DNA of 64,000 bases. It comes from Herbiconiux sp. Lineage in GTDB: Bacteria; Actinomycetota; Actinomycetes; Actinomycetales; Microbacteriaceae. The notes beneath the pieces are model-generated. The model saw nothing but the letters and a program-made list of their open reading frames with translations, did no database searches and was not told where the DNA came from. The position numbers and the translations under genes were made by a program. Where the stretch lies: positions 186,001 to 250,000 of the forward strand of contig NZ_SCVE01000007.1 in assembly GCF_004297105.1 (NCBI RefSeq), in the 5' to 3' direction. Below are positions 20,504 to 59,780 of the stretch, piece by piece (the first letter of the stretch is position 1; each line of letters starts with the position of its first letter).

Positions 20504-21337
20504 ATGAATCCCACGACACTGCGTCCCGACGACGGAGAACTGGTGCGCCAGGCCACCCGCACGCTACGGGTCGCGACCGGGGCGGATGTCGTCTTCGCGG
20601 GTCTGCGGGGGGAGCGGGGCATCCGCATCTCCTCGTATTCGGGAGCCTGGTCGGATCGGCTCGGCAGCATCGAGGTGCAGCCCGCCCGGGGCCTGGGCGG
20701 GGTGTCGTGGGAGACCCGGCGCGCGATCCTCGTCGACGACTACCGCGGAGCGCGCACGATCACGCATCACTTCGATCCGCAGATCCTCGGCGAGGGCATC
20801 CAGAGCCTGGCGGTGGCGCCCATCGTGGTCGGCCGGCATGTGCGAGGCCTCCTCTACGCGGGCAACCGCGAGACGGCGGCGAGCGAGATCCGGCCCGGCG
20901 AACTCGTGCGGGCCGCCTCCCTCGTGGCGGAGGAGCTGCGCATCCGGGACCTCGTCGACGAGCGCCTCGAGATCAAGGTGCGTCAGACGGCCGCGGGGGT
21001 GCCCGACCAGCTCCGGTCGCAACTCCGGCAGGTGGCGGCCGAGACCCAGGATCCGGAGACCGCGCGACGGCTCGTCGAACTCCTGGGCGGGATGCCCGGA
21101 GCGGAGCCGGCCATCTCCTCGCCCGACGGCGGTCTGACCCGGCGTCAGCAGGACGTTCTCGGCCTCGTGGCCTACGGCCTCACGAATGCCCAGATCGCGA
21201 CGCGACTCGGCATCTCCGAGGTCACGGTGAAGAGCTACCTCCGCACCATCATGTCGCGCTTCTCCGTGCGAACCCGCAGCCGAGCGGTCATCGAAGCCCG
21301 TCGGCTCGGCCTGCTCCCTGCGTGGCCGAACGACTGA
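20504..21337 (+). CDS. GAF-domain LuxR-type transcriptional regulator
   Basis: A 277-residue regulator. A GAF-like sensor fills about residues 10-150 (RATGADVVFAGL-like beta strands, VEPIVVGRHVRGLLYAGN region), followed by a linker helix. A C-terminal LuxR helix-turn-helix follows: LTRRQQDVLGLVAYGLTNAQ, IATRLGISEVTVKSYLRTIMSRF. It is the architecture of RamA-type acetate regulators of actinobacteria. It is convergent with acs (8 bp between stops). RamA activates acetate genes in Corynebacterium, so the proximity is suggestive but not proof of control. Confidence 0.85.
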   Translation: MNPTTLRPDDGELVRQATRTLRVATGADVVFAGLRGERGIRISSYSGAWSDRLGSIEVQPARGLGGVSWETRRAILVDDYRGARTITHHFDPQILGEGIQSLAVAPIVVGRHVRGLLYAGNRETAASEIRPGELVRAASLVAEELRIRDLVDERLEIKVRQTAAGVPDQLRSQLRQVAAETQDPETARRLVELLGGMPGAEPAISSPDGGLTRRQQDVLGLVAYGLTNAQIATRLGISEVTVKSYLRTIMSRFSVRTRSRAVIEARRLGLLPAWPND

Positions 21338-57454: not shown

Positions 57455-58819
57455 TCAGAAGTCGTCGACGTGGAGGTGGTTGCAGGTGTCGGCGAACCCG
57501 ACGAAGTTGATGTAGCTCGGCTCGTTACCGGCCGAGAGGCGGCAGTTCTGCTGGCCCACCCGTGACCCGTTCGGCATGATCGGGTCGAGCACCTTGATGA
57601 GGTTGAGCGAGGCGCTGTTCGCGCCCGTGGTCGGCACCCCGCCGACCGAGGTGAAGTCGACCGCGTGGCCGCCGCCCTGCTTGTAGTGGGCGGATGCCGT
57701 GCCCGCGCCCTCGATCTGGCCCGTGCAGCGCCGGCTGATGTCGCTCACGCCGGCGCTGCCGAAGGCGCGCACGGCGGCCACCATCGCCTGCAGGATCGTG
57801 ACGTCGATGCCGCAGTTCTCCACGCTCTTGCCCTGAGCGATCCAGGCGATCTCGAAGATGTGGTCGGGGCTCGATCCGTGGAACTGACCGGATGCGACGT
57901 ACCCCATGAGTTCCTCGGCGAGAGCCTGGGCATCCCCCGACACGGCACCCACGACGTTCCCGCCGCCGCGCGCGGCTGCGGCCGCGGCGGCTGCCGCGGC
58001 TGCAGCCGCAGCCGCAGCTGCTGCCGCCGCGGCCACGCCGGCCTGGTACTGCTGTTCGGTCGTGGCCACGTTCTGCTGAAGGCTCACGAGCTGTGCGTCG
58101 AGCTCGGCCTGGTGCGCCGACTGCTCCTGCAGAGCGGCCACCATGGCCTGCTGCGCGGCGGCGGCGTCCTCGAGGGCTTTCTGGGCGGCATCCGCCAACG
58201 TCGTGAGCTGGTCTTTCGCCACGGCGGCCTGTTCGGCCAGGGAGGTGGAGGTGTTGGCGTCCTGTTCGGCGCTGGCGTAGATCGCGTTCACCGCCTGGGC
58301 GAGCTGGCCGGCTGAGCTGAGCTGGTTGAGCAGGTCGTCGGCCTGGCTCGAGCTGCTCGTGAGCAGGAGCGAGGTGAGGTCGTTGCCTCCGGTGCGGGCG
58401 AACTGCGAGGCCACGACCGCGGCACGCTTCTTCGAGGCATCGGCGGCGGTGGCGGCCGCCGCTGCGCTCGCGGCAAGGGCGTCGGACTTCGCCTGGCCGG
58501 CTGCCAGGGCGGCCTCCGCGGCATCGTTCTCGGTGGTGCGCTGGTCGACGAGCTGACGGGCGGCGTCGGCTTTGGCCTGCAGGTCGGCGATGATGTTCGT
58601 GATCGTGGTGATCTCGGCCTGTTTGGCGCTCTCGCTGGCGCGGGCCGCCTGCACGTCGTCCCAGCTCGGGTACGAGTCGGCATGGGCGGCGGTCGGGGTG
58701 CCGAGGATGGTCGAGGCCACGGCGACGGCCACGATCAGCACCGTGGGCAGCGCGGGGAAGCGGAGCCTGCGCCGGCGTCGGCCGGATCGGGTGGCGGGTG
58801 AAGCGGAGAGCGCGGTCAT
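57455..58819 (-). CDS. Secreted coiled-coil protein with M15-like peptidase domain
   Basis: A 454-residue exported protein. A long signal (Arg-rich start, LPTVLIVAVAVASTILGTPTAAHA) leads to a heptad-rich coiled coil (about 50-250, NlpC/P60-partner type). An almost pure alanine linker (about 260-285) precedes a C-terminal domain with SAHYKQGGGHAVDF and CNHLHVDDF, the HxxD...H zinc arrangement of VanY/M15-type D,D-peptidases. Three Cys pairs may form disulphides. It probably works on peptidoglycan during growth or division. A GAGGA ribosome-binding site sits between the ATG and a (CGTG)7 microsatellite. Confidence 0.85.
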   Translation of the reverse strand: MTALSASPATRSGRRRRRLRFPALPTVLIVAVAVASTILGTPTAAHADSYPSWDDVQAARASESAKQAEITTITNIIADLQAKADAARQLVDQRTTENDAAEAALAAGQAKSDALAASAAAAATAADASKKRAAVVASQFARTGGNDLTSLLLTSSSSQADDLLNQLSSAGQLAQAVNAIYASAEQDANTSTSLAEQAAVAKDQLTTLADAAQKALEDAAAAQQAMVAALQEQSAHQAELDAQLVSLQQNVATTEQQYQAGVAAAAAAAAAAAAAAAAAAAAARGGGNVVGAVSGDAQALAEELMGYVASGQFHGSSPDHIFEIAWIAQGKSVENCGIDVTILQAMVAAVRAFGSAGVSDISRRCTGQIEGAGTASAHYKQGGGHAVDFTSVGGVPTTGANSASLNLIKVLDPIMPNGSRVGQQNCRLSAGNEPSYINFVGFADTCNHLHVDDF

Positions 58820-58826
58820 GAATCCT

Positions 58827-58854
58827 CGTGCGTGCGTGCGTGCGTGCGTGCGTG
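58827..58854. repeat. (CGTG)7 tetranucleotide microsatellite
   Basis: Seven perfect CGTG units (CACG on the coding strand of the leftward gene), ending 7 bp before the ATG at 58819 and directly abutting its GAGGA ribosome-binding site. Slippage here would change the leader, not the reading frame. Confidence 0.95.
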
Positions 58855-58987
58855 GCCGCAGGGGCGACCTGGAGTTCCAGACCTCATCTAAACCCGAGGG
58901 TGCTCCGCGGGTGGCATCCCGAGGCGGCAATTCGCAAAATCGTTGACCGCCCTGAAGCACCTGCCACGGCTGCTGTATGGTCGGCGC

Positions 58988-59584
58988 ATGAAGAACTCTC
59001 CCGCCCGCGGCGACGACAGCCCCGGGCGCTTCGGCGCGTCGGCGACCGCCGAGGTGGCGCCGCGATCGGTGGGCCGCGTCGACATCGCGTACAACCCCGC
59101 GGTCGATGGTGACGCGGATCCGGGCGAGATCGTATGGACCTGGGTGCCCTACGAGGAGAACGACGGGCGCGGCAAAGACCGGCCCGTGCTCGTGGTGGCC
59201 CGCGAGGCCGGCGGAACACTGCTCGGCCTGCAGCTCACCTCGAAGCCGCACGACGGAACCTGGGACGTGGGCATCGGCAGTGGCGCGTGGGACTCGGCCG
59301 GGCGGCCGAGCTGGGTGCGCCTCGAACGGGTGTTCCGCCTGCACCAGGGCGGCGTGCGACGCGAGGCGGTGGCGCTCGACCGCGCGGCGTTCGGGCGCGT
59401 GAGCGCGGAGCTCGTGAAGCGCTACGGCTGGGCCACGGGCGCGCCGGCAGGCGGCGCAGCGAGGTCGGGCGCGGCGGCGGCGACGGGCGGCGCAGCGAGG
59501 TCGGGCGCGGCGGCGGCGACGGGCGCGGCGGTGGGCGCATCCGTGCTGCGGCTCGTGCGCACCCTCTTCGGCCGCCGCCGCTGA
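58988..59584 (+). CDS. PemK/MazF-like protein with repeat tail
   Basis: A 198-residue protein. The central part (about 35-140: VDIAYNPAVDGDADPGEIVWTWVPYEEND, KDRPVLVVAREAGGTLLGLQLTSKPHD, SWVRLERVFRLHQGGVRREA) matches the PemK/MazF-type growth-inhibitor fold, with PGEIVWTWVPY in place of the usual PGDIVWV. The C-terminus carries two 12-residue repeats (GGAARSGAAAAT) and a basic end. No antitoxin gene is adjacent, so it may be a solitary domain with another role. Divergent from the coiled-coil gene. Confidence 0.75.
   Translation: MKNSPARGDDSPGRFGASATAEVAPRSVGRVDIAYNPAVDGDADPGEIVWTWVPYEENDGRGKDRPVLVVAREAGGTLLGLQLTSKPHDGTWDVGIGSGAWDSAGRPSWVRLERVFRLHQGGVRREAVALDRAAFGRVSAELVKRYGWATGAPAGGAARSGAAAATGGAARSGAAAATGAAVGASVLRLVRTLFGRRR
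59450..59521 (+). repeat. Two identical 36-bp tandem repeats inside the PemK-like gene
   Basis: 59450-59485 and 59486-59521 are identical 36-mers in frame, each coding 12 residues of a Gly/Ala/Arg tail. Exact identity at the DNA level implies recent duplication. Confidence 0.95.
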
Positions 59585-59648
59585 ACCCTCCACATCCGTC
59601 ACTGCGACCCCTGCGCGATGCAAAGAGCTGAACAGAAGTGCAACCTCA

Positions 59649-59780
59649 GATCCGTCACATTTTGCTCGTATTCGCGTCGTTCTGCACCAAAAGTGACGGA
59701 CGTGGGGAAGCGCGACCCCGAGATCCGTCAGTTTCTGCGCGTAGTGGAACAAATTCGCGCAAAAAGTGACGGATGTGGGG
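59649..59780. repeat. Tandem palindromic repeat element (two 59-bp copies)
   Basis: Copies at 59649-59707 and 59722-59780 (period 73). Each starts GATCCGTCA and ends TGACGGA(C/T)GTGGGG, so the ends are inverted repeats. In copy 2 the arms extend inward (TTTCTGCGCG / CGCGCAAAAA), giving a long hairpin; copy 1's centre has diverged. A further ATCCGTCAC half lies at 59594-59602. They lie in the gap between convergent genes, as REP-type elements do. Confidence 0.8.

Follow-up and report, generated by a model that had tools for sequence, protein, structure and literature searches.

A lineage-specific CACG microsatellite adjoining the Shine-Dalgarno sequence of a Herbiconiux gene: probable origin by slippage in an untranslated leader

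We analyzed a 64,000-nucleotide stretch of the genome of Herbiconiux sp. (assembly GCF_004297105.1, contig NZ_SCVE01000007.1; hereafter the window, whose coordinates are used throughout), in which seven perfect CACG units lie directly beside the Shine-Dalgarno sequence (SD) of a gene encoding a probably exported coiled-coil protein. We favor, with a probability of about two in three, the view that this tract is a recent, slippage-born and lineage-specific microsatellite in an untranslated leader, unstable in length and either neutral or a weak graded modulator of expression. A single ancestral CACG beside the SD would have expanded to seven units by slipped-strand replication in this Herbiconiux lineage only. 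The tract would be part of the untranslated leader of the mRNA, where gain or loss of 4 nt between the putative transcription start and the SD would alter leader length alone. Because nothing else would change, the tract is probably tolerated, and any effect on expression would be small and graded.

Position and rarity of the tract

The tract and the two genes around it are as follows.

58827-58854, minus strand: perfect 28-bp microsatellite, (CACG)7 on the gene strand and (CGTG)7 on the plus strand
58820-58827, minus strand: SD GAGGA (58827-58823) and the spacer TTC before the ATG
57455-58819, minus strand: P0001, 454 aa, with a signal-peptide-like N-terminus (judged by eye), a coiled coil, an Ala-rich linker, and a conserved C-terminal domain
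58988-59584, plus strand: P0002, divergent PemK/MazF-family gene (PF02452, 7.8e-11)

An earlier note on this DNA had reported seven perfect units ending 7 bp before the ATG, and the letters confirm it: between the last CACG unit and the ATG (58819-58817) stand seven nucleotides, AGGATTC. The GAGGA motif takes its first G from the end of the tract, so that tract and SD touch. An error of assembly or sequencing in the tract length is scarcely credible: although the sequence comes from a single draft assembly (20 contigs, 3,765,052 bases), the contig around the tract spans 296 kb, and ordinary sequencing reads are longer than 28 bp.

Within the window, (CGTG)7 is the longest perfect tract of units 1-8. 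The sequence CGTGCGTGCGTG, expected 0.09 times after dinucleotide shuffling, occurs five times, always within the tract. A chance origin was rejected by this shuffling and by first-order Markov copies, 2.66 Mb of which contained one period-4 tract of 4 units and none longer. Three period-4 tracts of at least 4 units (7, 5.75, and 4 units) were found in 444 readable kb of the same genome, that is, the window and 19 stretches, one of them picked for its known CGTG4. A further 380 readable kb yielded no such tract, and the total therefore remains three (CGTG x7, TCCA x5.75, and CGTG x4) in 824 readable kb (the window and 38 of 40 stretches, the other two reading N). The CGTG x4 tract is not a random find, as its stretch was preselected, and 4 units are close to the reach of chance. 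Loci of other Microbacteriaceae, 80 of 80 and 537 kb in all, contained no period-4 tract of at least 4 units.

The two shorter tracts also precede genes, whose labels were assigned by eye. (TCCA)5.75, at L146:10657-10679 (C17:30657-30679 of the genome), precedes a binding-protein-like lipoprotein gene, with 57 nt between the tract and the ATG (10737); this gene lies behind an ABC-ATPase-like gene. The tract is a candidate second leader microsatellite of this genome. (CGTG)4, at L001:1501-1516 (C3:40890-40905), is (CACG)4 when read in the direction of a LysM-like lipoprotein gene; it precedes the start of this gene by 18 or 78 nt, according to the start codon chosen.

The rarity claimed for such tracts in GC-rich actinobacteria was borne out in the family: among 398 Microbacteriaceae genomes drawn from a larger group, 18 carry (CGTG)n of at least five units and five, including the present one, at least seven. 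The stress on rarity is tempered by a paper in which tetranucleotide repeats are in general not suppressed in prokaryotes (PMC4060949). The same paper states that pyrimidine-purine patterns can form Z-DNA and are generally suppressed. The 28 bp are a perfect pyrimidine-purine alternation over their whole length, and the tract could in principle act as a supercoil-sensitive Z-DNA element affecting transcription of underwound DNA between the divergent genes. We consider this highly improbable, as such alternation is common to any (CGTG)n and the tract is confined to a single lineage.

The putative leader in the genus and similar tracts in the family

Three further features of the leader region were defined.

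58886-58893, minus strand: GTTTAGAT, conserved GTTRRAT-type element and putative -10 (genus alignment)
58925-58942, minus strand: conserved box CGATTTTGCGAATTGCCG, between the divergent genes (genus alignment)
58885-58887, minus strand: upstream ATG overlapping the -10-like element, opening a 23-codon frame with 7 units, probably not transcribed

P0001 orthologs are encoded in all 16 Herbiconiux genomes compared, own included, and the closest named relatives of P0001 are Herbiconiux proteins. In the other 15 genomes, the gene start carries at most one CACG/CGTG unit (489-540 nt examined). The same was observed over 659-710 nt in G007, G013, and G014, where the gene start is ambiguous or distant from the aligned residue and a wider stretch was hence used, and in 25 of 25 loci (L006-L030) that partly repeat these 15 genomes. 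G008 (L091) has a single CACG at the very place of the tract, CACGAGGATCC-ATG. A GAGGAnnn-ATG start is shared by 13 of the 15 other orthologs, the remaining two being those of G007 and G014. With more than one unit in 0 of 15 relatives, a conserved regulatory repeat was rejected, and there is no sign that the tract has been maintained as a contingency locus.

The -10-like element starts 74 nt before the ATG here versus 51-57 nt in relatives (11 of 15 measured, with G006, G007, G013, and G014 excluded; the farther of two matches taken in G002). The leader is therefore longer by 17-23 nt, and the extra length falls between the putative -10 and the ATG, at the place of the tract. Growth by slippage from one unit to seven would mean a gain of 24 nt. 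From the conservation of the -10-like element, we infer that transcription starts upstream of the tract, which would place it in the transcribed leader. A scan of 58780-59060 with the sigma-70 consensus found no promoter; this consensus is uninformative for such a GC-rich host.

Across the genus alignment, the conserved box resembles CGATTCGCGAATTGCCG. It lies 48-50 nt upstream of the -10-like element in this genome and in the nine relatives with both measured, chance matches at the wrong place in G008 and G006 being left out and G010 having no match. The box may be an operator of both divergent promoters. A narrow pattern search for a regulon recovered a single copy in the 824 readable kb of the genome. 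At 58925-58942, a CGATTYGCGAATTGCCG-like box is a genus-wide occupant of the region between the two divergent genes.

The (CGTG)n tracts of at least five units in the family, 19 in the 18 genomes, occupy unrelated places. We inspected all of them, including the second tract of G098 (L202). A frame was scored as coding-like, from the table, when GC at first and third positions exceeded that at the second, the third by 0.2 or more. A frame that is coding-like on both sides spans only one of the 19 tracts, that of L117, with just 10 codons on one side; the other 18 have none. Neighboring genes passed the gene filter for only nine tracts. Some of these nine are located just behind a stop codon (10 nt in L116, 18 nt in L118, 4 nt in L128, and 27 nt in L129). 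An independent tract that resembles the present one escaped the filter: in L123 (G350:C50, near 21293-21312), (CACG)5 is followed, as found by eye, by CAACAAGAGGAGCACAGAA and the GTG start of a long open frame; the tract is a few bases before the SD AGAGGAG, and the frame begins VTDVQHMKWWGWG, which is not signal-peptide-like. In L125, 37 nt separate (CACG)5 from an ATG that has an SD-like GGAGA. The five start-proximal tracts (own gene, L001 with 4 units, L119, L123, and L125) all read CACG on the sense strand, which is no more than suggestive; sense-strand CGTG would place GTG codons beside the SD. The occurrence of tracts near the starts of unrelated genes speaks for tolerance over a surface-specific device.

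Gene product and divergent neighbor

The C-terminal domain of P0001 contains residues invariant in 18 of 18 aligned sequences: S376, H378, GGGHAVDF (382-389), H448, and H450. They form the pattern S376-x-H378 ... H385-A-V-D388 and H448-L-H450, also in 18 of 18. SxH...xD with HxH is what we take to be the zinc-ligand pattern of VanY/M15 (LAS) peptidases, and the domain recalls metallopeptidases of this type, a likeness in sequence that searches of Pfam, NCBIfam, PDB profiles, Foldseek, and hhalign did not confirm. In Pfam, no family passed the cut-off for the C-terminal domain, and VanY matched neither this domain nor the whole protein. Comparison by hhalign with nine VanY domains of the genus gave a probability of 0.2%, both alignments being shallow. 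H378 and D388 are 10 residues apart versus 7 in the VanY proteins of the genus (SEHQTGMAMD). With VIA-align, the VanY-like structure 4jid scored Z 3.4 (106 residues, 3.9 A), tied with unrelated rows; the best Z was 3.6, mostly for histidine-kinase ATPase domains. The model of the domain has a pLDDT of 66.0, and Foldseek returned nothing above a probability of 0.04 for it.

For the full-length model (mean pLDDT 62.7), Foldseek ranked the N-terminal domain of RipA first (6ewy, probability 1.00, E 0.013, query TM 0.30), followed at ranks 2-5 by SMC coils with similar scores; EnvC, PcsB, and RipC came lower, and no match reached E <=0.001. We found no Pfam NlpC/P60 match in the whole protein at E up to 1 or in the C-terminal domain of 18 orthologs at E up to 5. 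P0001 had no match in PHROGs and none over the cut-off in NCBIfam, and the PDB sequence search gave a weak EnvC coil match (E 0.22) and, for the C-terminal domain, one chance-level row. The earlier note took the product to be exported and probably to act on peptidoglycan. Export agrees with the signal-peptide-like start, seen by eye; the peptidoglycan-acting domain itself is unproven, as no Pfam family over the cut-off, convincing fold, or VanY profile supports it. 'Cell-wall hydrolase-like' is a fair label as a guess from sequence. In the Ala-rich linker (57960-58034), GCN repeats form arrays of period 3, 6, 9, and 12, and its length varies among orthologs.

A PemK/MazF-family ortholog is present upstream in 15 of the 16 genus genomes, own included, the exception being G013 (about 540 nt upstream covered). 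Seen from P0002, the tract reads CGTG and lies 88 nt before a TTG of its frame and 133 nt before its ATG. TATGGT is found 6 nt before this ATG; a TATGGT-like element close before an ATG is the pattern of leaderless actinobacterial genes. A perfect 36-bp tandem repeat (2.1 copies, 59450-59525) lies within the coding sequence of the Ala/Gly-rich C-terminal tail of P0002. Beyond it, at 59600-59780, and at L001:1520-1625, we noticed by eye intergenic elements with inverted arms (atccgtcac...gtgacggat; gagttgccac...gtggcaactc), possibly small palindromic repeat families.

Unit number, probable instability, and known systems

A change in unit number leaves the main frame, the SD-ATG spacing, and the spacing of the box to the -10-like element unaltered, and only the leader length shifts. 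None of the three properties by which a contingency locus operates (frame, promoter spacing, or SD-ATG spacing) is altered here, the promoter being assigned by comparison. The earlier note suggested that the tract might switch a surface trait on and off, as described in host-adapted bacteria. In favor of such classical phase variation, the tetranucleotide tract is perfect and close to the start of a gene whose product is likely exported, and repeat-number switching upstream of genes is reported in the actinobacterium Mycobacterium tuberculosis (PMC12817950). The tract, however, falls neither in the open reading frame nor in the putative promoter core, and it precedes the SD; at such a position, the classical routes (ORF frame shift, -35/-10 spacing, SD-ATG spacing) are inapplicable. 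Nor does the organism look like a host-restricted pathogen: it belongs to Herbiconiux, and the portion of the literature on this genus that was consulted describes strains from plants and soil. We judge on/off switching very improbable. Phase variation is possible; nothing here speaks positively for it, and the place of the tract speaks against an on/off switch. In the open-licence PMC literature, we found no paper on tetranucleotide-repeat phase variation in Microbacteriaceae.

In silico folding, which assumes a transcription start and ignores proteins and small RNAs, gave a mean unpaired probability of the SD of 0.31-0.38 across 0 to 15 units, nearly independent of unit number, which is a further point against on/off switching. 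The opening energy of the start region falls from 7.9 (0 units) to 6.3 (7 units) and 6.1 kcal/mol (15 units). An mRNA structure switch was rejected, no step change appearing between 0 and 15 units, and the 119-nt leader with the start region folds no better than its shuffles (z +1.27). When the tract was scrambled 300 times, the SD was unpaired at 0.47 +/- 0.14 (0.32 with the native tract) and was at least as open in 247 cases, whereas the opening energy of the start region was 7.6 +/- 1.6 versus 6.3, only 69 of 300 being as low; the two measures disagree in direction. As only leader length changes and SD openness is flat, no on/off effect is expected, and at most a mild graded one.

Unit number might nevertheless grade translation or mRNA life through an RNA or protein binding the CACG leader, or through ribosome access. 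The tract is in the putative leader and adjoins the SD; AGAT(n) upstream of uspA2 changes mRNA level, according to PMC7302503; and all five start-proximal tracts are CACG on the sense strand, a post hoc count that omits the CGTG reading of the own tract from the side of the divergent gene. Against such a leader rheostat, SD openness is flat with unit number, the tract is not kept in relatives, and 7 units compare with the 13-18 given there for AGAT before uspA2. We regard it as rather unlikely. A bolder version is distinctly doubtful: in this environmental actinobacterium, (CACG)n would be a hypermutable element that tunes a RipA-like cell-wall protein, acting as a rheostat via the leader and not via frame or promoter spacing; it would be free to vary since NucS ignores indels, and the genome would carry several such tetranucleotide leader tracts ahead of genes for envelope proteins.

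A switch by upstream-ORF coupling has only a slim chance. The frame opened by the ATG at 58887 passes through the tract, and its fate depends on unit number (computed for 3 to 12 units): when n = 1 mod 3, as for the present 7 units, it stops at the TGA of the ATGA that overlaps the main start; n = 2 mod 3 joins it in frame to the gene; and n = 0 mod 3 carries it across the gene in the third frame. Upstream ATG, GTG, or TTG frames ending at such an ATGA overlap occur in 8 of 18 leaders (own, five other Herbiconiux, and two Subtercola). However, the upstream ATG shares bases with the putative -10 and, should this assignment hold, would be missing from the transcript; it has, by eye, no SD at the usual distance; upstream starts vary in codon, place, and frame among relatives; and the ATGA overlap is automatic where the second codon begins with A and no earlier stop occurs.

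The genome has a NucS match (5.3e-42), and a MutS_V search of it found no match, the same search being positive in 11 of 14 control genomes. EndoMS/NucS is unable to correct indels, according to PMC8228993, so slippage events at the tract would not be mended by NucS. The tract is thus probably unstable in length, as no MutS was found and NucS leaves small indels. Four points count against the preferred reading of a recent, near-neutral microsatellite. PMC8228993 also notes that polymerase proofreading may clear almost all short indels, which would lessen the instability; the place of the tract, touching the SD, is not random; both other period-4 tracts of at least 4 units in the sampled part of the genome are likewise upstream of genes for likely secreted proteins (labels by eye), although three cases are too few and the stretch with CACG x4 was deliberately picked; and, by analogy, repeats in leaders and upstream regions can be active in other bacteria. 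If the tract proved both unstable and linked to expression, it would represent contingency-type tetranucleotide variation in an environmental actinobacterium without MutS. At present, its value lies rather in illustrating, cleanly and in nature, how a microsatellite is born, with one CACG in a relative and seven here, at a site where changes are seemingly tolerated and in a NucS-only genome.

Among known systems, the N-terminal coiled coil of P0001 may resemble that of the peptidoglycan hydrolase RipA (Rv1477), whose N-terminal domain is its first-ranked match; unlike RipA, P0001 has no NlpC/P60 domain, and SMC coils score similarly. The AGAT repeat of Moraxella catarrhalis uspA2 is, like the present tract, a tetranucleotide repeat that precedes the ORF of a protein either exposed on the surface or (here probably) exported, with its units outside the reading frame. 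According to PMC7302503, it varies between strains and affects mRNA; there it counts 13-18 units in the tabulated strains and lies 132 bp before the ORF, versus 7 units and 7 nt before the ATG here. The G-repeat of Helicobacter pylori tlpB is likewise a simple repeat in an mRNA leader, and the present tract would, if active, act gradedly as well. It is, however, a mononucleotide tract, where ours is a tetranucleotide, and PMC8295292 reports a small RNA, RepG, and a measured length dependence. In M. tuberculosis, promoter tandem repeats offer an actinobacterial example of repeat-number change upstream of genes, a change only predicted here. PMC12817950 describes them as phase-variable, with variation within cultures; one array is 12 bp upstream of lpdA, and its change in copy number is a 232-bp deletion, as opposed to the 4-bp unit of the present tract. 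The tract thus appears to share a type of position with the repeats of uspA2, tlpB, and M. tuberculosis, a likeness of place that need not extend to action.
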